Shown: positions 9,540-51,100 of the stretch, piece by piece | How the letters are laid out: each line of letters opens with the position of its first letter | Position numbering within the stretch: position 1 is the first letter of the stretch | NCBI RefSeq assembly: GCF_032118995.1 | Contig: NC_092662.1 | Coordinates: 4,650,001-4,714,000 of the forward strand | Source: Asterias amurensis | Taxonomy: Eukaryota; Echinodermata; Asteroidea; Forcipulatida; Asteriidae | Direction of reading: 5' to 3' | DNA: 64,000 nucleotides | Translations under genes and position numbers: made by a program | The notes under the pieces: model-generated | What the model was told of the DNA's origin: nothing | What the model saw: only the letters and a program-made list of their open reading frames with translations | The model's database searches: none

Positions 9540-11785
9540 CTTGCCTAGCCCCTATTGGAAAGGGTACATGGATTGAGTCGGGTGTTGGCATGCCATCTTG
9601 AAGCCTTGGCTGTTTCAGCGTTAGGCAAGATCTCTAGCTTCTCCCCGAGTGGAAAGGGGACAAGGATTGAGTCTTGGATGGTTTATGTATAACAAGGGCT
9701 GTGAAACCCCTACCCCCAGTTGAAAGGGGTAAATAATTGAGTCAAGTGCTTGGACTGCTTGCCACTACCTCATTCAAGTCTGACTGTTGCAGTGATAGCG
9801 AGACCTCTGCCTACCCCCAGTGGAAAGGGGACAAGGATTGAGTCATGTGCTGGCCACTACCTCATTCAAGTCTGACTGTTGCAGTGATAGCGAGACCTCT
9901 GCCTACCCCCAGTGGAAAGGGGACAAGGATTGAGTCATGTGCTGGCCACTACCTCATTCAAGCCTGGACTGTTTCAGTGATTGCGAGACCTCTGGCCTAC
10001 CCCCAGTGGAAAGGGGACAAGGATTGTGTCATGTGCTGACCACTACCTCATTTAAGCCTCGACTGTTGCAGTGATAGCGAGACCTCTGGCTACCCCCAGT
10101 GGAAAGGGGACAAGGATTGAGTCATGTGCTGGCCACTACCTCATCCGAGCCTCAACTGTTTCAGTGATAGCGAGACCTCTGGCTACACCCCCAATGGAAA
10201 GGGGACAAGGATTGTGTCATGTGCTGGCCACTACCTCATCCAAGCCTTGACTGTATCAGTGTTAGCGAGACCTCTGGCCTACCCCCAGTGGAAAGGGGAC
10301 AAGGATTGAGTCATGTGCTGGCCACAACCTCATTCTAGCCTGGACTGTTTCAGTGATAGCGAGACCTCTGGCCTACCCCCAGTGGAAAGGGGACAAGGAT
10401 TGAGAGTCATGTGCTGGCCACTACCTCATTTAAGCCTAGACTGTTTCTGTGATAGCGAGACCTCTGGCTACCCCCAGTGGAAAGGGGACAAAAATTGAGT
10501 CAAGTGCTGGCCACTACCTCATTCAAGCCTGGACTGTTTCAGTGATAGCGAGACCTCTGGCCTGCCTACCCCCAGTGGAAAGGGGACAAGGATTGAGTAA
10601 AGTGCTGGCCACTACCTCATTCAAGCCTTGACTGTTTCGGTGATAGCAAGACCTCAGGCCTACCCCCAGTGGAAAGGGGACAAGGATTGAGTCATGTGCT
10701 GGCCACTACCTCATCCGAGCCTGGACTGTTTCAGTGATAGCGAGACCTCTGACCTACCCCCAGTGGAAAGGGGACAAGGATTGTGTCATGTGCTGGCCAC
10801 TACCTCATCCAAGCCTCGACTGTATCAGTGTTAGCGAGACCTCTGGCCTACCCCCAGTGGAAAGGGGACAAGGATTGAGTCATGTGCTGGCCACAACCTC
10901 ATTCTAGCCTGGACTGTTTCAGTGATAGCGAGACCTCTGGCCTACCCCCAGTGGAAAGGGGACAAGGATTGAGAGTCATGTGCTGGCCACTACCTCATTT
11001 AAGCCTAGACTGTTTCTGTGATAGCGAGACCTCTGGCCTACCCCCAGTGGAAAGGGGACAAGAATTGAGTCAAGTGCTGGCCACTACCTCATTTAAGCCT
11101 AGACTGTTTCTGTGATAGCGAGACCTCAGGCCTACCCCCAGTGGAAAGGGGACAAGGATTGAGTCATGTGCTGGCCACTACCTCATCCGAGCCTGGACTG
11201 TTTCAGTTATAGCGAGACCTCTGGCCTGCCTACCCCCAGTGGAAAGGGAACAAGGATTGAGTCAAGTGCTGGCCACAACCTCATTCTAGCCTGGACTGTT
11301 TCAGTGACAGCGAGACCTGTGGCCTACCCCCAGTGGAAAGGCGACAAGCATTGAGTCATGTGCTGGCCACTACCTCGTTTAAGCCTGGACTGTTTCAGTG
11401 ACAGCGAGACCTGTGGCCTATCCCCAATGGAAAGGGGTCAAGGATTGAGTCAAGTGCTGACCACTACCTCATTCAAGCCTCGACTGTATCAGTGTTAGCG
11501 AGACCTCTGGCTACCCCCAATGGAAAGGGAACAAGGATTGAGTCATGTACTTGCCACTACCTCATTCAAGCCTGGACTGTTTCAGTGACAGCGAGACCTA
11601 TGGCTACCCCCAGTGGAAAGGGGACAAGGATTGAGTCATGTGCTGGCCACCACCTCATCCAAGCCTGGACTGTTTCAGTGTCAGCGAGACCTCTGGCTAC
11701 CCCCAGTGGAAAGGGGACAAGGATTGCGCCTTGGGCTGACCTTAACCTTACAGCCTTGGCTGTTTAAGTAAGAGTGAAACCCAGT
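9540..11785. repeat. Minisatellite, unit about 93 bp, about 24 copies
   Basis: Every unit carries the words GCTGGCCACTACCTCATTCA, GACTGTTTCAGTGATAGCGA and CCCCCAGTGGAAAGGGGACA. The edge units (9540-9780 and after 11735) are diverged, and the central ones are close to one another. Because 93 is a multiple of three, frames stay open over one or two units and give several false open frames of 60-91 codons. A block of about six units appears twice (see findings). GC content is well above the flanks. Confidence 0.93.
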
Positions 11786-14835: not shown

Positions 14836-15973
14836 AATAATGCGCCTACAAAGTCAAAAAGTGAACCACATGTGTGTCATAAATAAGAGAATCAATGTGT
14901 GTGTGGTGAAGAGGTTTTTAACTAGTGGTTTAAAACCAACGAGGCCTGGTGCTTGATAATTTTACCAAGTCAAGGTATATGTGTTGAATCGGTTTTCAAC
15001 TAGTGGTACATGTTTTTTGGACCAATTTTCAAATCATCACATCTTGACAGACAGAGTCATCATTTAGTAAGCCCTGTTATGAGTCATATATTCCACAAAT
15101 GTAAGGAATAAAATGAGGTATGTTGGAGTAGTATTGGACTTTTTTAAATGGGAGAAATTTGCAATCAAACTACCACGCATTTTGCGACCTTTGAAAACTT
15201 AGCGTTTAAGACATCAAAGGTGGGCTGTAATGGTGACAGTGATGAGACCGATTAAAAGCGGAGCCATTAACAGCGGAGCCATTAACCATTTTAACAGCTC
15301 AACAAGGTGGGCTAACATAACATGCTCTTCATTTCAGTGCACTTCTACATTATTTCTGTCAATACTTTTCAAATGAGGCCGAATAAGATTGAATTTCAGA
15401 AGCCCTTTTGACTAACAGTATTCAAACCGAGGTCACGCATGAAAAATCATGTCTACTCGCGCAGATAAATCACCAAGGAGACTTATTCAATCGAGTGTCT
15501 GTGGGTAGACTATTATTAATATTTTATAAACTATGTTTGAACTGAGGCGAGGGGAACAAAATCATGACAGCCACTACCTTCGGGAACTAAACTGCTCACA
15601 AGAGGAACACTTCAGCTTTGCATTGATATATAACTTATAAAAAGAGAGTAATAAATAATAAAAATATACTTGATTTAAAAAAGTTTCCAACTTTTTGTGA
15701 GCAGCTTATTGACTTTTCTTACACGTGGTCACAAGATTAATTATTTGGGTGGGCATGATTGTTAGAACTTTTAGAAGTAAAAACTTGTGCAACTAAAAAT
15801 GGTATGTGTTACCTATTTTCAGTCACCTATCAACTCCAGATCTTCCAACTTCTATCAACACTGATGACAGCCCCGAATTCTTCATGAAAATTGCAGAAAA
15901 ATGTGTAGTTTTTATCAGTTAGTAAGACTTCTCTTTTAAAAAACTGCGCCATGCCTCTTTGCCTCTGGCGCGC

Positions 15974-16036
15974 GGTGGACACTTATTCTCAAACGTTTGG
16001 GGTTCATTGGTACACACTATTAGTATCCGAAGTAAT
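15974..16036 (+). repeat. Left terminal inverted repeat of the foldback element
   Basis: It pairs with 20749-20811 read on the minus strand. The first 45 bases are identical and the rest differ by a small indel near CACTATTAGTATCCGAAG. It contains CTCAAACGTTTGGGG, the same motif that marks every internal 245-bp unit. Confidence 0.92.
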
Positions 16037-17749
16037 AAGGCTACACTAAACTGGCAGCAACAGTCCTTACACTTCCCACGATTGGCCGTGTACACAACAC
16101 AGCGTATAATGAACACGCACGCTAAGTGCATATAAAGACCCCACTAATATACCCTTCACAGAACCCGTCCTCATAGTAGTTAAACCTCGACGGAATTTCT
16201 TCAAATTTTTAGAATCTATTAATGAAGAATGTAGCTTAATAATTAATATTTTTTCATATTTTTCCTATGTATAGTTGTCAACTTATTCAAAGTTAAAGTC
16301 ATCTCAAACGTTTGGGGCTCATCGATTTCCAAGTACCGCCAATACAGCGTATAGTTAACAGGCACGCTGACTGCATGAAAAGACCCAACTAATATACCCT
16401 TCACAGAACCCGTCCCCAACGTATTTAAACCCCGGTAGAATTTCTTCAAAGTTTTAGAATCTATTAATGAAAAATGTAGCTTAATAATTAATATTTTTTC
16501 ATATTTTTCCTACGTATAGTTGTCAACTAATTCAAAGTTAAAGTCATCTCAAACGTTTGGGGCTCATCGATTTCCTAGTACCGCCAATACAGCGTATAGT
16601 TAACAGGCACGCTGACTGCATGAAAAGACCCCACTAATATACCCTTCACAGAACCCGTCCTCATAGTAATTAAACCTCGACGGAATTTCTTCAAAGTTTT
16701 AGAATCTATTAATGAAGAATGTAGCTTAATAAATAATATTTTTTCATATTTTTCCTATGTATAGTTGTCAACTTATTCAAAGTTAAAGTCATCTCAAACG
16801 TTTGGGGCTCATCGATTTCCAAGTACCGCCAATACAGCGTATAGTTAACAGGCACGCTGACTGCATGAAAAGACCCAACTAATATACCCTTCACAGAACC
16901 CGTCCCCAACGTATTTAAACCCCGGTAGAATTTCTTCAAAGTTTTAGAATCTATTAATGAAAAATGTAGCTTAATAATTAATATTTTTTCATATTTTTCC
17001 TACGTATAGTTGTCAACTAATTCAAAGTTAAAGTCATCTCAAACGTTTGGGGCTCATCGATTTCCTAGTACCGCCAATACAGCGTATAGTTAACAGGCAC
17101 GCTGACTGCATGAAAAGACCCCACTAATATACCCTTCACAGAACCCGTCCTCATAGTAATTAAACCTCGACGGAATTTCTTCAAAGTTTTAGAATCTATT
17201 AATGAAGAATGTAGCTTAATAAATAATATTTTTTCATATTTTTCCTATGTATAATTGTCAACTTATTCAAAGTTAAAGTCATCTCAAACGTTTGGGGCTC
17301 ATCGATTTCCAGTACCGCCAATACAGCGTATAGTCAACACGCACGCTGACTGCAAGAAAAGACCCCGCTATTATACCCTTCACAGAACCCGTCCTCAAAG
17401 TATTTAAACCCCAATAGAATTCCTTCAAAGTTTTAGAATCTATAAATGAAGAATGTAGCTTAATAAATATTATTTTTTCCATATTTTTCCTATGTATAAT
17501 TGTCAACTTATTCAAAGTTAAAGTCATCTCAAACGTTTGGGGCTCATCGATTTCCAAGTACCGCCAACACAGCGTATAGTCAACAAGCACGCTGACTGTA
17601 ATAACAGATCCCACTATTATACCCTTCACAGAACCTATCCTCATAGTATTTAAACCTCGACGGAATTTCTTCAAATTTTTAGAATCTATTGTTGAGGAAT
17701 GTAGCTTAGTATATAATTTTTTTCATTTGGGGCTCATCGATTTCCGTGT
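16037..17749 (-). repeat. Left arm: about 245-bp tandem units
   Basis: CAAACGTTTGGGGCTCATCG recurs at intervals of 244-246 bp from about 16303. Units alternate in two variants, so the true period is a dimer of about 490 bp; 16240-16700 and 16730-17190 look nearly identical. Read on the minus strand, most units stay open for 65-76 codons (MKKFYRGLNTLGTGSVKGI and so on). There is no start or splice context to suggest a gene. Confidence 0.9.
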
Positions 17750-18529
17750 ACACAGGGGGCTATTTTCACTCGTGTCACCTAAGAGCTTCAACTTTCCGAA
17801 AACTTTGACCAGCCGTCTTCAAAAGTTGAAATATCGTCATCGGCCGCAGTAAGCACAAGCATAACACTTATACAGTCGATTCGATATCTTAAAAGCACAT
17901 CATTATTCTGATGGATGAAAACAAAGTGTCAACGCTTGAACAGTCTTTTGTGGGCCAACAAAATGAAAAAGAGAGGAGGATTAACTAATAATGCAGCGTT
18001 CTTACTTTGTATGATTCAATGTATACATTGAAAAAAAAAATGATTAATAAAATATTGAAAAAAGCGTTCACATTATTATTGTTTTTTATTTTGTTTCTAT
18101 TATATTTTATGAAAAATTTCCAGACTTCCACAACATTTTTGGAAACAACTATTTCTTTGAGGGGCTTGTATTGAAATGAACTTCTTAAAAATTAGGCTTA
18201 AGACTAATACAACATTATAAGGTTTTTATATAAATACGAATCCTATATTTTACCTAATGTTTACAGGTAAACAAAAAATAATGGGATGCTTTCAAGATTT
18301 GTTTTCATATGGTGCTAAAACATTTCGTTAAAATAGCTATAGTGTCCGCTAGTCATACGTCCTCCACGAAGGCGGTGTGGACCGTCAAATATTGATAATT
18401 TTAAAATGCAAGCTTACGAAGTTGCAACATTACAGGATTCTCCATTTTCCTTACAGATACCAGTACTTGACAGACGTCTTGGTTTTAGAAGCCATAAAGC
18501 ATCTTTTTCACAAGGTTGCAGTCTTGACG
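17750..18529. other. Unique centre of the foldback element
   Basis: About 780 bp without copies of the arm repeat. It is AT-rich with no long open frame and no recognisable transposase motif. It separates the two inverted arms and would form the loop if the element folded. Confidence 0.7.
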
Positions 18530-20748
18530 TCTCTGACCAGAAATGCAGTCAGCGTGCCTGTTGACTATACGCTGTTTTGCGGTACTTGGAAATCGATGAG
18601 CCCCAAACGTTTGAGATGACTTTAACTTTGAATAAGTTGACAATTATACATAGGAAAAATATGAAAAAATAATATTTATTAAGCTTCATTCTTCATTAAT
18701 AGATTCTAAAACTTTGAAGAAATTCTATTGAGGTTTAAATACTTTGAGGACGGATTCTGTGAAGGGTATAATAGTGGGGTCTTTTCATGCAGTCAGCGTG
18801 CCTGTTGACTATACGCTGTTTTGCGGTACTTGGAAATCGATGAGCCCCAAACGTTTGAGATGACTTTAACTTTGAATAAGTTGACAACTATACATAGGAA
18901 AAATATGAAAAAATATTAATTATTAAGCTACATTCTTCATTAATAGATCCTAGAAATTTAAAAAAATTCTGCCGAGGTTTAAATACTATGAGGACGGGTT
19001 CTGTGAAGAGTATATTAGTGCGGTCTTTTCATGCAGTCAGCGTGCCTGTTAACTATACGCTGTATTGGCGGTACTAGGAAATCGATGAGCCCCAAACGTT
19101 TGAGATGACTTTAACTTTGAATTAGTTGACAACTATACATAGGAAAAATATGAAAAAATATTATTTATTAAGCTACATTCTTCATTGATAGATTCTCCAA
19201 ATTTGAAGAAATTCCATCGAGGTTTAAGTTTTATGAGGATGTGTTCGGTGAAGGGTAAAATAGTGGGGTGTTTTTATGCAGTTAGCGTGCCTGTTAACTA
19301 TACGCTGTATTGGCGGTACTGGGAAATCGATGAGCCCCAAACGTTTGAGATGACTTTAACTTTGAATAAGTTGACAACTATACATAGGAAAAATATGAAA
19401 AAATATTAATTATTAAGCTACATTCTTCATTAATAGATCCTAGAAATTTAAAAAAATTCTGCCGAGGTTTAAATACTATGAGGACGGGTTCTGTGAAGAG
19501 TATATTAGTGCGGTCTTTTCATGCAGTCAGCGTGCCTGTTAACTATACGCTGTATTGGCGGTACTAGGAAATCGATGAGCCCCAAACGTTTGAGATGACT
19601 TTAACTTTGAATTAGTTGACAACTATACATAGGAAAAATATGAAAAAATATTATTTATTAAGCTACATTCTTCATTGATAGATTCTCCAAATTTGAAGAA
19701 ATTCCATCGAGGTTTAAGTTTTATGAGGATGTGTTCGGTGAAGGGTAAAATAGTGGGGTGTTTTTATGCAGTTAGCGTGCCTGTTAACTATACGCTGTAT
19801 TGGCGGTACTGGGAAATCGATGAGCCCCAAACGTTTGAGATGACTTTAACTTTGAATAAGTTGACAACTATACATAGGAAAAATATGAAAAAATATTATT
19901 TATTAAGCTTCATTCCTCAATAAAAGATTCTAAAAATTTGAAGAAATTCTACCGGGGTTTAATTACTCTGAGGATGTGTTCGGTGAAGGGTATAATAGTG
20001 GGGTGTTTTTATGCAGTTAGCGTGCCTGTTAACTATACGCTGTATTGGCGGTACTGGGAAATCGATGAGCCCCAAACGTTTGAGATGACTTTAACTTTGA
20101 ATAAGTTGACAACTGTACATAGGAAAAATATGAAAAAATATTATTTATTAAGCTACATTCTTCATTAATAGATTCTGAACATTTGAAGAAATTATACCGA
20201 GGTTTAAATACTATGAGGACGGGTTTTGTGAAGGGTATAATAGTGGGGATCTGTTCTTGCACCGCGGAGCCGTGCTGGCGCCCTCTACTGGCTGATATGT
20301 GTAACATCGCACTGTGACTGTTGCATGAAAGGCAGACAAATAGGCAGCGCCTAACGACTTGTCATCAAGTCTACTGGCTGATTGACACGCACGAATGTTA
20401 CAGTATTCACTATACGCTGTATTGGCGGTACTTGGAAGTCGATGAGCCCCAAACGTTTGAGATGACTTTAACTTTGAATAAGTTGACAACTATACATAGG
20501 AAAAAGCTGAAAACAGACTATTTATTAAGCTACATTCGTCATTAATACATTCTAAAAATTTGAAGAAATTCCGTCGAGGGTTAAATATTATGAGGTTGGG
20601 TTATGTGAAGGGTAATAGTGGGGTCTGTTCTTGCAGTCAGCGTGCCTGTTGACTACACGCTGTATTCTGACACGGAAATCGATGGGCCCCCAAACGTTTT
20701 AGTTGGGACTAGGTGAAGTTTAGCAATAACACGGGACATGGTCAATAT
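18530..20748 (+). repeat. Right arm: about 245-bp tandem units, inverted to the left arm
   Basis: GAGCCCCAAACGTTTGAGAT recurs at about 245-bp steps from 18598. A dimer of 490 bp is repeated: 18950-19430 and 19440-19920 show no difference that I can see. The rhythm breaks at about 20245-20410, where about 130 bp of foreign sequence (with GCGCCCTCTACTGGCTGA) interrupts a unit. The outermost unit passes into the terminal repeat. Confidence 0.9.
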
Positions 20749-20811
20749 TTCCTTCGGATACTTATTAGTGTGTACCAATGAACCCCAAACGTTTGAGAAT
20801 AAGTGTCCACC
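20749..20811 (-). repeat. Right terminal inverted repeat of the foldback element
   Basis: Reverse complement of 15974-16036, ending GAATAAGTGTCCACC. It is followed at once by the second copy of the 9-bp target duplication. Confidence 0.92.
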
Positions 20812-21163
20812 CTGGCGCGCGCTTATAGAATAGACTGGTAATGTGTTTTGACAGGCTAGTCTAGCTACATAAGTCGTTCAGGTCTCAGACTCATGTGGGG
20901 ATGATAATAAACTTTGTACCAGTCCGTTTTGTATTTTATTCTAGCTGTTTAACTCGTTGAAAAGTTTTAAAACAATCATAGTGCAAACTACAACGGTAAA
21001 AATATCTCCATGCTTTTCAAATTATGTAAGTTTTTATCCATTTTATATAGTTTAAGTGACCACGATACTGTGCAATTAAACAATGCACAGAACACAAAAA
21101 CGATTATGACAACTTTAATGTAGCGCCCTCTAGAGTTGAACAGAGTTGGATGCAAAACAAAAC

Positions 21164-36846: not shown

Positions 36847-37066
36847 CAGGGGGGGGGGGGAATCCTGTGAGACAAACGTTCACCTCAGCTCCCTCCAAAG
36901 AGTAATTCTGCTGAAGCCTACTTAGGCAGAGCACAGTTTTAGTGACAATGGCGACAGTGCAGGGGGGGGGGAATCCTGTGAGACAAACGTTCACCTCAGC
37001 TCCCTCCAAAGAGTAATTCTGCTGAAGCTTACTTAGGCAGAGCACAGTTTTAGTGACAATGGCGAC
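36847..37066. repeat. Tandem duplication, unit about 113 bp
   Basis: Two adjacent copies run from a G-run (10-11 G) through AATCCTGTGAGACAAACGTT, CAGCTCCCTCCAAAGAGTAA and GTTTTAGTGACAATGGCGAC. They differ by very few bases, so the duplication is young. G-run length differs between copies. Confidence 0.88.
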
Positions 37067-37379
37067 AGGAAACGTCTACTAGCGTTAGCGTCATAGTAAA
37101 CAGAGCCATTAAATTGGACTGTTGTCATTTGAGATAACATTGAAGATTAAAAGATAACTCCTATGAATTTTAATGGTCTTTTCCATCCCAAATGTTCTTG
37201 TTGGTTGGAATCATAATAGTCTAAGTAGATCGCAACACCAAGTAAAAGCCTCTACCAATTGTCAGACTTTTCTAGACATCCGTTTCATAGGATTGCAAAA
37301 AAAGAAAGAGTTCAGCAGAAATATCGCCGAAGAACAAAAATCTGAGACTGATCTGTTCCGTTGATTATGTGGTGACATT

Positions 37380-43800: not shown

Positions 43801-46800
43801 GCTATGGAGTCCTACAGGAAACAAGAAGATCTTTCTTACCTGTTGTCGGACTTCTCTGAGTTCGTCCTCCTGCTGACCCAGCCTGTTTGCCAACTCCTGG
43901 CTGACGTGCTGCTCCGACTTCAGGCCTGATAACATCTCCATATTATCATTGGTCTGAGACGGAAAAGAAGGTGGTAAAAGAAAAACAATCATGCTTAGAC
44001 ATAGTTGAATTTTACAACTTTATAAAATTGACAATAAAAGGACCCAAGCAGATCCAACCAAAATGACACTCTATAAAAGCAGCTTTATGAATTTGGCTTA
44101 GAGCTCGACGCCAATGCTTTTTAACAGCTTAGCCATGACACGCCACAAGAGGTCTCTCACTACGCGCAGGGCCCAATTCAATAGATCTGCTTTAGCCACA
44201 AGAGTAGCTTTAACACAACAACCTTATGCTTACCAGAGTAAGGTTAAAGGCAGTGGAGACCATTGGTAATTACTCAAAATATTTATTAGCATAAATCCCT
44301 TACTTGGTAACAAGTAATGGGGAGAGGTCGGTAGTATAAAACATTGTGAGAATTGGCTCCCTCCGAAGTGGAGTAGTTTTCGAGAAAAAAACACACATTT
44401 CCACGATTTTGATTTTGAGACCTCAGATTTAGAATTTGAGGTCTCGAAATCAAGCATCTGAATGCACATAACTTCGCCTGACAAGGGTGTTTTTTTCTTT
44501 CCTTATTATCTCGCAACTTCGACGATCGATTGAGCTCAAATTTTCACAAGATTGGTATTTGATGCATATGTTGAGATACACCAAGTGAGATTACTGGTCT
44601 TCGACAATTACCAATAGTGTCCAGTGTCTTTAACAGCCAAAATGTACAATTTGTGACTGGTATCCCGCTCATTTCTGATATGCAAACATTTTTTGAGCAA
44701 AATATTCTGCTTGAGCATCTCTATGAAATTGGGCCCTGGCATATAAGAACTAGAGGGCGCACTGACCTATAAAATGCGAGCCGGCATGCGCGCAGGCAGC
44801 CATTTTCTAAGTAGACAAAACAGGCATTGCTTAGCGTGTGTTTGTGCAGCCATTTTCTAAGTTGAAAAAAAAAACCAGCATCACGTAGCGTTCAATAAAC
44901 ACAAACTCTAACGTGTGTTTTATATTGCAGTCCCGTCGCGTTTGTGCAACTAGCATCACCAGTGCACCCTCTAGTTTTTATATATAACTCTATGTGCCCT
45001 GATCTCACCATTTTGACGTAAGCAGCTTGCAGCTCCTCCAGCTGTAGTTTCAGCGTCTTATTCTGAGCTAGGGCTCGGCTGATGGTGGCCTTATCTCCCT
45101 GGATGCTCTCTAAGAGTCTCCCTCTGTCTGTGCTGTCCTCTTCAAGACGTGCTAGCTGACGTTCCAACTCCTCGATCCGGTCCTCCTTCTCCTGGTAGAG
45201 GCGGCTGAGCTGGGAATTATCACTCACCTAAGAAAATTACAAGGGAAAAAAGTATAAAACCGACCATCTATTGTAATTTTAACTTTTCAACTTTTCAGTG
45301 CATAGAGTATTTTAGTTTCAGATCCTTTCGTTGTTCGTAGTGTTTTTAATGGTTACATTTAGGTAACAGCTGGTCTGGCCTAATTTTCAAATTACTTGTT
45401 TTGGGCTTTAAATGGGGAATATATAAGTTTTTTGTTTTCTTGTAATGCTTTTCATTTTACTCTTAAGCGCTTTGAGGAATGCCATTTCATATTGCGCTGT
45501 ATAATTACTGTTTAATTATTACTATTATTATTATTATTATTATTGTTTTTGGCCCTTGTCTGAAAGCTAAGTTATTGACAGAAAACTACCCACCTGTTGT
45601 TGATATTGCCCATGTATTGTCTGCCTCTCCGCTTCAAGCTGTTCAATCCTCACTTGGAGTTTCTCAACCTCTTCCTTGTTAACGAGATCTCCTCGCTCTG
45701 ACTCTGCAGCTGTGGATGTGGAAAAAATGAACACGTCAAAACAGTTTAAAAACAAGAAACAAAGTGAAGTAGGTACTCCTCCAGTTTCTTCCAAAGTACT
45801 GCCTTCTCACAGAGTAGGTGCATTGACATTGAACTGCTTGGTTCATTTAACTTAATGTATTAGCACTTAATCTGCATGGGGCAGTAGCCAGCACTTCTGG
45901 GCCCAATTGCATAGAGCTGCTTAAGCACAAAATTTCGCTTAAGCAAAGAAATCCTTGCTTAGTAAAATCAGTATACCGGCCAAGACTCCACTCAATTGTT
46001 ATGCTAAGTAAACAACGGCTAAATATCAGTCACAAGCAATGTATATGGCATGACATTTTGGTCAGTAAAATGTGTAAAATAAGCGAGCTATTTTCGTGCT
46101 TAAGCATTTTGTTTTGCTTAAGCAGCTCTATGAAATTGGCCCCTGGTTTGTTCATGGTCCAATTAAGTCCACTGTTTGGAAAAGGAATTACATGGATATA
46201 ACAGGTGTTAGTTGGCAAATAAGAAGGATGTTTCATATTAGTCTTTTTGTTTGCATGGAGCTTTCCCATAATGCTATTCTGAAATGAAATCAAGTCCTAG
46301 GCTTGGGTTTTAGAAACTCACCTTTTGCACTTTCCATTGCTGTGATTTCTTGCCGAAGATCGGCCAGATTTTGAATAAGTGTTTCCTTTTCTTCTGATTG
46401 GGATATAATCTGATATAGAAATGAAACAAAGAATGTTAAGTCAAATGGGTCTCTCAAGAAATTGGGATATCTGGACTCTGAAGACGTGACTTGCATACGT
46501 GGGCAAGAGCCACAAATTATGGATCACCTCCTGAGATGGCCCCTACTGGAGCAAGAATGCAGAACTGAGGATCTTGTAGAGTACAATGATATTGCTTGGA
46601 TCTGTGTTCAGTTATGGCTGAAACACAACATCTAGTGTGTGGACACAATAAGAAGAAGTCACACGTAAACAACAAAGTTTATCGTCAACCTGATTTTCTG
46701 TACAAAATACCCATCTTTGCAAAACCAAGTCAATACCCCCTAACCGTTGCGGTACCCACTGCCAAAACATAGGATTCGAACTGCCTCTAGCTGCCGGGCA

Positions 46801-46954
46801 ACCTCGGTAGTCTAGTTGGTAAGACACTGCTCTAGAATTGCAAGGGTCGTGGGTTCGAATCCCACCCGAGTAACATGCCTGTGATATTTTTTCACAGGAC
46901 TCGGGAAAGTACTGAGTATACAGTGCTAACACACATCGGTGTATGGGTAAAAAC

Positions 46955-46988
<34 letters not shown>

Positions 46989-47234
46989 AAATTAATATTC
47001 TTTATCCCCGATGCAAATTTAACATCTATTATATCGTTGCGGTACCCGCTGCCAAAACATAGGATTCGAACTGCCTCTAGCTGCCGGGCAACCTCGGTAG
47101 TCTAGTTGGTAAGACACTGCTCTAGAATTGCAAGGGTCGTGGGTTCGAATCCCACCCGAGTAACATGCCTGTGATATTTTTTCACAGGACTCGGGAAAGT
47201 ACTGAGTATACAGTGCTAACACACATCGGTGTAT

Positions 47235-47275
<41 letters not shown>

Positions 47276-47531
47276 AAATTAATATTCTTTATCCCCGATG
47301 CAAATTTAACATCTATTATATCGTTGCGGTACCCGCTGCCAAAACATAGGATTCGAACTGCCTCTAGCTGCCGGGCAACCTCGGTAGTCTAGTTGGTAAG
47401 ACACTGCTCTAGAATTGCAAGGGTCGTGGGTTCGAATCCCACCCGAGTAACATGCCTGTGATATTTTTTCACAGGACTTGGGAAAGTACTGAGTATACAG
47501 TGCTAACACACATCGGTGTATGGGTAAAAAC

Positions 47532-47575
<44 letters not shown>

Positions 47576-48099
47576 TTCTTTATCCCCGATGCAAATTTAA
47601 CATCTATTATATCGTTGCGGTACCCGCTGCCAAAACATAGGATTCGAACTGCCTCTAGCTGCCGGGCAACCTCGGTAGTCTAGTTGGTAAGACACTGCTC
47701 TAGAATTGCAAGGGTCGTGGGTTCGAATCCCACCCGAGTAACATGCCTGTGATATTTTTTCACAGGACTCGGGAAAGTACTGAGTATACAGTGCTAACAC
47801 ACATCGGTGTATGGGTAAAAACCAAAAAAAAAAAAAAAAAAAAATTAATATTCTTTATCCCCGATGCAAATTTAACATCTATTATATCGTTGCGGTACCC
47901 GCTGCCAAAACATAGGATTCGAACTGCCTCTAGCTGCCGGGCAACCTTGGTAGTCTAGTTGGTAAGACACTGCTCTAGAATTGCAAGGGTCGTGGGTTCG
48001 AATCCCACCCGAGTAACATGCCTGTGATATAGCTTTTCACAGGACTCGGGAAAGTACTGAGTATACAGTGCTAACACACATCGGTGTATGGGTAAAAAC

Positions 48100-48136
<37 letters not shown>

Positions 48137-51100
48137 TTCTTTATCCCCGATGCAAATTTAACATCTATTATACAAGTCAATACCCTAAACTCTGTTTGGT
48201 ACTCATTGTCTAGCATATAGAGTCCTGTATGGAATCCATCACAGCCTATAATGAAGACTTGATTCAAATTTTACAAGGCTATATGATAAAGAACTGGGAT
48301 ACCTGTAGGGCAAGTTCTTGGGCCTGTTTCTGATAATGCTCAGTGTGTTGTTGAAACTGCTGTGCGAGCTGCTCCCTCTCTGCAGTCAGCTTGTGGAATG
48401 ATTCGTTATACTGTCAAGATAAAGTATATCAAATTGTTAAATGGGTGCCTGCAAGGGAGGGTAGAGGTTGATATTGGGTTTGAAAAAGCCTTTGGAGTGT
48501 CACGGCAGCCCGAGGCTGTATACTCCCCAGGGAGCTGAGAAAGATTGCAGAAATGTTATTGGCCCTATGACCAGGGCCCAATGTCAGAAAGCCTGTATGC
48601 ACAAACACATGCTTAAAGAATGCTTGGGTTGATCTTGGGTTGGACGGCAGCCTGGAGGCTATATACTTCACAGGGAGTAACAGTAAAGAAATGTTATTGG
48701 CACATTGACCAGCAGCCTTTTTCACAAAACGCTAGAATTAATCCTATCTCGAGTTAGGATGGGTAACTCGTCCTAAATTTGAATGGGTTTAATGCATCCT
48801 AACGTCTACGGATACAGAACTTAACTTATCATAAGTCCTATGACTGATCCTAAGTTAGGAAGAGTTTGGTGAAATCAACGGCTGGCTACTTATGTAAAGC
48901 GTTGTGGTAAGTTGTTCAACAGTTATTACCAGAGTATGTCCCAACCTTAAATGGAGATCTCAGGTTCTTTTTAAACTTGGGTAAATTTTCTCTGCATGAT
49001 TTAGACAGAAACCTTTGACAACTGACCTGGGCTAATTTACTCTCAAGATTGGCTTTCTCCTCCTGTGTTTTTAGCAAGGCATTATGGGTATCCTGTTGAG
49101 TCCCCTGATTGGATAGTTGATTGGCACGGAGCTCGGCTGCATTCAGACGATCGTTTAAATCCTGCGCAAAATGTTGAAGCTGCGAGTACTCAGAGGTCTG
49201 GACATTCGGAGAAAACAAATTTTGTTTTACTAGGAGGAAATTATTGTTACAAACGCTGTATAGATTGTGATAGTTTGTCATGGTCTAGAGCGTCGAACTT
49301 AAGTTCTGACAGGTTCAAATCCTGGTTCATGGGCAAGAGACTTAACTACAGGTGCTTCTCATCGCCCAGGAGTAAATAGCGACATAGCGTGTCATGGCAG
49401 AGTGGTCTAGAGCATCACACTATATTATGATAATTGGGTCATCAAAGTGTGAGTTTGAATCTTGATCTTGACACAAATTAAGTAAAGAAGAGAAAACATA
49501 CCTTTGTTTTGAGTTGGCTGCTAGTCTCCGAGTTCCGCTGCGTTAGTTCCTCATTAGCTTTTCTGCACAAAGGATGAAAGTAAAATGAAATGTTAACAAA
49601 TAATTCCCATTTTCAATGTAAGCTCAATGGATAATTGTGCAGCTGTTCCTCAGTGGCTACACTGTTTGTTTTGTTAATTAATTGTTTCAATTTTAATTAC
49701 ATTTTTGAGTGGCTTGGTTGACAGCAGAAGCAAAGCACAACACAAACTTACTGTAACTTATAAACGTCTAACTTGAGGGCGTCCTTGTCTTTATCGAGCA
49801 CAGCACTGGTCTGTAAAAAATAAAAACATGAATAAGGCAGCATTAAAAATGAGACAAAACTAGAACTTCCCAAATTGACTAACCAATGTCACTTCAACCT
49901 TAAAGGAACACGTTGCCTTGGATCGGTCGAGTTGGTCTTCGAAAAGGATTTGTAACCATTTGTCATAAAATGCATATGATTAGAAAGATATTTTAAAAGT
50001 AGAATATAATGATCCACATAAGTATCACTCGAAATTGCATGGTTTTCCTTTGACCTCGTCGACTAACACTGTCGGCCATTTATGGGAGTCAAATTTTGGA
50101 CTCCCATAAATGGCCGACCGTGTTGGTCCCCAAAGTAAAAGGAAAACCACGCAATTTCGGGGCATATTTGTGTTGATCACTGTATTCTATTTTTAAAATA
50201 TCTTTCTAACCATATGCATTTTACAACAAATGGTTACACACGCTTTTCATAGACCAACTCAACCGATCCAAGGCAACGTGTTCCTTTAAACTGCCATACA
50301 GCCAGGGGTCACACCCAAGTTTCGATACAACTGGGGAAGCGGTATCACAGGAGATGCGACTTCACATTTCAAATTTCAGGTGATAAACCTTAAGGGAAAC
50401 TAAAATTCACCCTATTCCTTAGGTGTAGGGTCAGTCCTTACCTTTTTAAATTGTTGACTTGATGATGTTGCACTAGCTAGAGATCGCTCTAGCTCGGCGA
50501 CTCTTTGTCGTGACGCTTGAAGTCGACTAGATAAATTGTCTGCTTCCGCTGAAATACAAAATGGAAAATGGAAAATTACTAAAACACCTGAAGTCCAGCG
50601 GAGCAACCCTAGAAAAAAACCACAAATACAGGGGGTTCCAAAAAATCCTGGCTCCTCAGTAAGCCAAACAAGGTAACAGTTTGAAAACTAGGTGAAGCAA
50701 TGCTACTGACCTGCTCTCTGTTTGAGACTCTGTTGACTTTGAGACACGGAGGTCTGGAGGTCAGTCTTCTCCGATACGAGGATTCCGATGGTCTGAATGT
50801 GGACCTGTAACTGCTCCTTGAGGGCACTCTGCTCTTTAAATAATCGCTGATCTGATTCTCTTCGTTCCTAATAACGAAAATTATTTCAATGGAAAATATT
50901 TGTGTATAAGCATTGTGCCACCCAAGATATTTTTTACAGAAAAGTGCCATTTTAAATCTTGCTCAGACTTTGCTAAACGCACATAATAATAACATTATAC
51001 AGTTTTCATAATTATGGGTGTGTCAAAGTGGTCATTATTTTACCTTTTGGAGCTGATCTTGTAATCTCTCACAGTGACTTCTCTGAAAACAAAAAATAGT

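Follow-up and report, generated by a model that had tools for sequence, protein, structure and literature searches.

The 64,000-nucleotide stretch of the sea star Asterias amurensis genome analysed here (RefSeq assembly GCF_032118995.1, contig NC_092662.1, positions 4,650,001 to 4,714,000 of the forward strand; hereafter the window) contains a young, non-autonomous foldback element of the Mutator-like element (MULE) type. The explanation that we favour, and to which we give a probability of close to 0.9, is that this element belongs to a family moved in trans by a MULE transposase. The enzyme, coming from a giant copy of the family on contig 22 or from a close relative of it, would recognise the ends that the family shares and insert the element through a 9-bp staggered cut. 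Motifs repeated along the arms would act as extra binding sites for the enzyme, unequal exchange or replication slippage would shift the number of arm units, often several at a time, and the arms would swap sequence between elements.

A preliminary description, made from the letters of the window, had recognised a foldback element with a perfect 9-bp target duplication, and both parts of this hold. Read directly and measured, the element proper is 4,838 bp long and is bordered on both sides by CTGGCGCGC, identical at 9/9 positions. Some of the dimensions needed correction, as the interval of 15965-20820 given for the element had included the duplication (Table 1), the identical termini extend over 46 rather than 45 bp, and the centre is 781 rather than 780 bp long. 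The inverted arms are indeed tandem arrays with a period of 245 bp, with matches of 92% in the left arm and 90% in the right. Long inverted arms of tandem repeats are what characterizes a foldback element, and this element has them; the two arms are 92% complementary over 1,385 bp, from which a single strand would be expected to fold back on itself. The motif CAAACGTTTGGGG (at most one mismatch) occurs seven times on the left and, inverted, ten times on the right. The 490-bp dimers, which had been described as almost unmutated, are real: at the best registers a dimer differs from the next at 0-1 of 490 bp (left arm) or 0-2 of 490 (right arm), compared with more than 100 differences at other registers. 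No open reading frame of at least 150 amino acids was found between the ends of the window copy, nor was any match to the catalytic exon of the giant copy described below.

Table 1. Features of the foldback element and its target site, in window coordinates.
Feature	Position	Strand	Remark
Target-site duplication, left copy (CTGGCGCGC)	15965..15973	+	9/9 versus right copy
Foldback element, non-autonomous, 4,838 bp	15974..20811	+	terminus common to 13 other copies
Terminal inverted repeat, left, 46 identical bp, CAAACGTTTGGGG at 15990	15974..16019	+	
Left outer module	15974..16304	+	first-to-second motif spacing 315 bp, 14/14 copies
Left arm, 245-bp unit array, 6.7 copies	16095..17726	+	
Centre, 781 bp, single-copy inside element	17760..18540	+	other copies' centres compared
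Right arm, inverted 245-bp unit array, 7.0 copies	18543..20261	-	
Right outer module	20250..20811	-	motif spacings 95 and 241 from end
Terminal inverted repeat, right, 46 identical bp	20766..20811	-	
Target-site duplication, right copy	20812..20820	+	

The same description had proposed a genome search for further copies and their flanking duplications, and this search, carried out on 491,506,623 bases in 23 contigs of one haploid assembly, revealed a family. A 29-bp terminus with up to three mismatches gave 32 genomic matches, compared with none for a reversed-pattern control; 27 of the 32 lie inside 14 two-ended copies on eight contigs and five lie outside. Contigs 6, 12, 17, 21 and 22 carry one copy each, contigs 2 and 15 two each (the window copy is one of the pair on contig 15) and contig 3 five, with lengths ranging from 2,878 to 35,124 bp. 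In the contig-2 copy at 13.2 Mb (L023) one end has diverged beyond the three-mismatch scan; both ends of this copy seem to be of the left type, and its centre runs opposite to that of the young copies. An exact 9-bp duplication is present in 10/14 copies, one of these being a poly-C and uninformative; the match is 8/9 in 3/14 and 4/9 in 1/14. Nine of the 13 copies whose two flanks lie in one locus show a 9/9 duplication, compared with a mean of 2.3/9 and a maximum of 8 in 156 control pairs of left and right flanks from different loci. The centres are shared as well, with 98-100% identity to that of the window copy in ten other copies, a match in two pieces in an eleventh (721/781 bp) and 87-89% in the two remaining. 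The family therefore has terminal inverted repeats and target duplications of the length found in the Mutator superfamily, which is 8-11 bp and usually 9.

A few candidates were not included in this count. A pair of termini on contig 7 (9,579 bp) has flanks AAGATGTAC and ATTGATCTC and motif numbers of 3 versus 1, and was not counted as an element. Relatives of about 284 bp on contigs 6, 7, 8, 13, 14 and 16 were considered as a family of small elements and dropped; what these nine loci (L038-L046) hold is a piece, about 90% identical, of the right end of this element, embedded in a different repeat as read in three of them (L038, L041 and L044). Also set aside, as incomplete, were one-ended fragments on contig 1, contig 20 and contig 6 (near 11.5-11.7 Mb). 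On contig 6, at about 11.499-11.683 Mb, five left-end fragments lie about 42-52 kb apart, as if within a larger repeated segment.

Copies with nearly the same centre differ in their arms. The 781-bp centre is identical in the window and contig-17 copies, which carry 7/10 and 11/12 motifs (left/right), respectively, and the 12 copies with window-like centres (98-100%, one of them in two pieces; all but the contig-22 copy and the contig-2 copy at 13.2 Mb) have 4-16 motifs on the left and 4-19 on the right. The best period within an arm, among lags of one to five units, is 1, 2, 3, 4 or 5 depending on the arm (17 arms of at least six units), and in the left arm of the contig-17 copy a lag of six is better than any of these. 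The nearest neighbour of a unit comes from its own arm, in its own copy, for 55% of 227 units, where 300 label shuffles gave a mean of 9% and at most 15%; when the giant is left out the figures are 51% of 181 units versus 8% shuffled. Together with the dimers, these unit comparisons support recent amplification or exchange of units. The number of units varies within the arms and not at the outer modules: the outermost motif spacing is the same on the left in every copy (Table 1) and is 95 bp on the right in 13/14, while the third motif spacing on the right varies from 358 to 525 bp. Constant outer spacings combined with inner variation in unit number fit unequal exchange or slippage, by which we infer the arms change, and not growth from the terminus.

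Growth from the terminus is what the preliminary description had suggested, with arms extending by inward copying of the terminal sequence. Terminus and unit do share a stretch of 21 bp, aligned at 20/21 with a score of 19, where 200 shuffles reach at most 15, and this speaks for such copying. However, the alignment ends after these 21 bp, the outer spacings stay nearly constant while the left arm carries anywhere from 4 to 26 motifs across all copies, and near-identical units recur at arm-specific periods. We consider growth of the arms by this route quite improbable and, on the constant outer spacings, reject inward copying as a continuing process; a one-time origin of the unit from the terminal motif stays compatible with the data.

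For mobility, the preliminary description had supposed a Mutator-like enzyme acting in trans, and had advised looking for a longer relative that encodes one. Such a relative is present on contig 22 (9,294,779-9,329,902). This 35.1-kb copy has the termini of the family, a duplication GTAACTCTT at 9/9, 26 motifs on the left and 25 on the right (about 25 units per arm) and an interior of 23 kb. The frame scan of copy interiors was made on this giant, and it led to a transposase frame of 564 amino acids with no stop, predicted to be joined from five pieces via four GT-AG introns and read against the left-to-right orientation of the element. A Pfam search of the frame returned the MULE domain (PF10551, E 1.2e-10, over its cut-off), a ZSWIM1-3 RNaseH-like domain (1.7e-9) and a SWIM finger (3.5e-6). 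The catalytic signature of MULE transposases is an acidic triad with a C-x2-H between the second D and the E, and LLDATYN, MSDF, CAFH and NGLERQH were found by eye in the spliced frame. The giant member of the family is thus predicted to encode a MULE-domain transposase with an acidic catalytic triad, and a single copy of its catalytic exon is present in the genome, the four other matches being 34-64% identical.

One acceptor in the frame is an AG two bases from the first choice, which shifted the frame. In MULEs of the Phantom subclass a FLYWCH finger lies N-terminal to the MULE domain; for the undefined N-terminal exon here, one candidate reading frame gave only ALS2CR8, at E 0.049 and below its cut-off. 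A 752-amino-acid frame near 0.19 Mb on contig 15 (189700-192700, L055) with ALS2CR8, ZSWIM1-3 RNaseH-like and SWIM domains in Pfam spans the joins of the giant's frame in alignment (365 residues, 30%), so the joins are independently supported. The contig-15 frame itself may belong to a transposon or to a transposon-derived host gene. Of the interior of the giant, 8 kb was searched, and at least about 2 kb of this matches dispersed repeats elsewhere (40 of 3,841 candidates scored), suggesting that part of the giant's length is nested sequence. The giant is probably autonomous.

It could also be imagined that a transposase of another superfamily mobilises these elements, as the P-superfamily enzyme does in Galileo, and that the MULE gene on contig 22 is a passenger. 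Foldback plans arise in different superfamilies, according to the accessible parts of two reports (PMC3573991, PMC4079207), which gives this idea some footing. Against it, 13/14 copies have 9-bp duplications with at most one mismatch, the usual MULE size in the portion of the literature cited (PMC6446971), the sole transposase found within any copy, in the frame scan of the contig-22 interior, is a MULE, and the giant that bears it has a perfect 9-bp duplication itself. We regard a foreign enzyme as very unlikely, and a MULE transposase acting in trans is the source of mobility that we infer.

Empty sites were found for two of the copies. The joined flanks of the contig-3 copy at 23.38 Mb are matched across the junction by a dispersed repeat, in 40/40 scored copies at 93-97% (40 of 2,457 candidates scored), and those of the contig-17 copy, with the duplication present once, match many satellite monomers across the junction, at 91-96% among the matches listed (39 of 2,578 candidates scored). 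Both empty sites are paralogous, not allelic. No allelic empty site was found for the window copy, whose joined flanks match only their own two halves in this single haploid assembly, and for four further copies only flank halves from their own loci were found. Of the 13 copies whose flanks were usable, the remaining six (contig 12, contig 22, contig 2 at 13.2 Mb, contig 3 at 12.27 and 12.80 Mb, and contig 15 at 9.09 Mb) entered only a search in which a single satellite made up the matches listed; the poly-C copy was left out. Long tandem units are generally known to be hard to assemble, which might point to inverted satellite arrays or an assembly artefact with no transposon at all, but this is scarcely credible, since 14 copies share their termini in different flanks, 13 of them have 9-bp duplications (at most one mismatch), and two have paralogous empty sites. 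If the genome analysed is the published one of Asterias amurensis, it was moreover assembled from HiFi and Hi-C data, as stated in the available text (PMC10625585).

Comparison with the giant suggests that the arms exchange sequence between elements. The first 75 bp of the giant and window copies differ at 2/75 positions on the left and 0/75 on the right, and their outer modules at 22/360 and 55/583. A 5.7-kb copy on contig 12 is much closer to the giant at its ends (3/360 and 1/560 differences), and of its 14 scored arm units nine best match the giant at 0.992-1.0, with one tie at 0.98. Four inner arm units of the same copy best match contig-3 copies, and its centre is 99% identical to that of the window copy. 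The contig-12 copy is thus a mosaic, as expected of arm exchange between elements. In the contig-3 copy at 17.17 Mb many mid-arm units resemble those of the giant (0.96-0.99), yet the ends are its own (23/361 and 47/578 differences from the giant), suggesting that exchange need not favour the ends, which counts against simple end replacement. It is possible that the unit arrays are platforms for exchange, on which non-autonomous copies gain the outer ends of the active autonomous element and keep their own centre, but we put this forward tentatively and think it rather unlikely. If true, arm exchange would keep the family tuned to the current transposase, and the contig-12 copy would be one such event.

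The repeated motif offers a possible role for the units. Its core, CAAACGTTTG, is a perfect palindrome, and each unit of about 245 bp has a motif centred on this palindrome (CAAACGTTTG plus GGGG) that is present in the terminus too. When 233 units were cut at an anchor other than the motif, the best-conserved 32 bp ran into the motif, with a conservation of 0.998 versus a mean of 0.947. The unit motif is likely to be an extra transposase binding site; repeats have been proposed as secondary transposase binding sites for Galileo (PMC3573991) and for Tetris (PMC4079207), in the sections of these papers available.

Several points weigh against a family moved and shaped in this way by the enzyme of the giant. 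The contig-21 copy is without a 9-bp duplication (4/9), and the 9 bp of the contig-17 duplication recur in every satellite monomer, so that the duplication and empty site of this copy are weaker evidence than the contig-3 case. The transposase gene is a prediction, with splice sites picked by eye to preserve the frame and a first piece that starts at an upstream stop and not at a known exon start. Between the giant and the window copy, divergence is 12-13% in the centre, which is inverted in the giant, and about 5-9% in the arms, and no autonomous copy closer to the window copy was found. Given this divergence, the window copy probably did not arise directly from the giant, which is a relative rather than a parent. 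As for the motif, cutting the units at the motif itself gave 0.925 for the 16 bp beside it versus 0.946 for the rest, a test that is biased by its own anchor and was replaced by the cut at another anchor. The units also homogenise each other, so the conservation of the motif is not independent proof of selection or function.

The foldback plan is shared with FB of Drosophila and TU of sea urchins, from which the sea star family differs in unit length and, for TU, in duplication length, a comparison of general figures and not of sequences. Tm1 of Meloidogyne is likewise a MULE/foldback family. In the accessible part of its description (PMC3169594), Tm1 has composite foldback arms, mostly 9-bp duplications, and both non-autonomous and MULE-transposase-encoding copies. 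It differs in an arm repeat of about 14 bp, as opposed to about 245 bp here, and in a Phantom-type transposase (PMC3169594); the sea star enzyme has an undefined N-terminus, and the copy that encodes it is 35 kb long with a split frame. Tetris of Drosophila virilis is alike in its foldback plan, tandem arm units of about 220 bp, 8-10-bp duplications, variation in unit number and a stretch shared by terminus and unit, which is 37 bp in Tetris. Its units also form satellite arrays, and its authors did not find a transposase copy, as far as the available text goes (PMC4079207), whereas one was found in the sea star family. Galileo of Drosophila resembles the family in its long repetitive arms, with tandem repeats of about 210 bp in one subfamily, in the chimeric copies discussed for it and in the proposed role of its repeats, and differs in its P-superfamily transposase, again from the portion accessible (PMC3573991).

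MULE foldback elements are therefore already known, and what is notable here is how large the partner is and that the contig-12 copy is a mosaic. At 35.1 kb the giant is unusual for a MULE, a comparison made with arthropods only, in which 322 MULEs range from 1.4 to 10.0 kb according to the part of that survey available (PMC13359780). No sea star foldback case was found among the matches listed in the open-access literature on echinoderm foldback elements. Some foldback families, Tetris for example, are known only from copies without an enzyme; here one genome has a probable autonomous giant together with 12 young copies that have near-identical centres and differing numbers of arm units. This makes the role of the arm units testable, as well as the rate at which the arrays change relative to point mutation.

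Other repeats were observed in the window. At 46745-48172 there are five tandem units of about 287 bp, each with a tRNA-like gene that ARAGORN calls tRNA-Ser (anticodon aga), and the array may be one of tandem tRNA genes or tRNA-derived. A tandem array of a 94-bp unit (about 21 copies, matches 90%) occupies 9756-11726, within the 2 kb of the window that are richest in GC, and a 111-bp unit with a G run at its start is present twice at 36851-37068 (matches 99%). Elsewhere in the genome, two COX1-like frames on contig 5 (658874-660214 and 675294-676634) look as if they came from mitochondrial DNA inserted in the nucleus, and a COX1 gene is found on contig 23.

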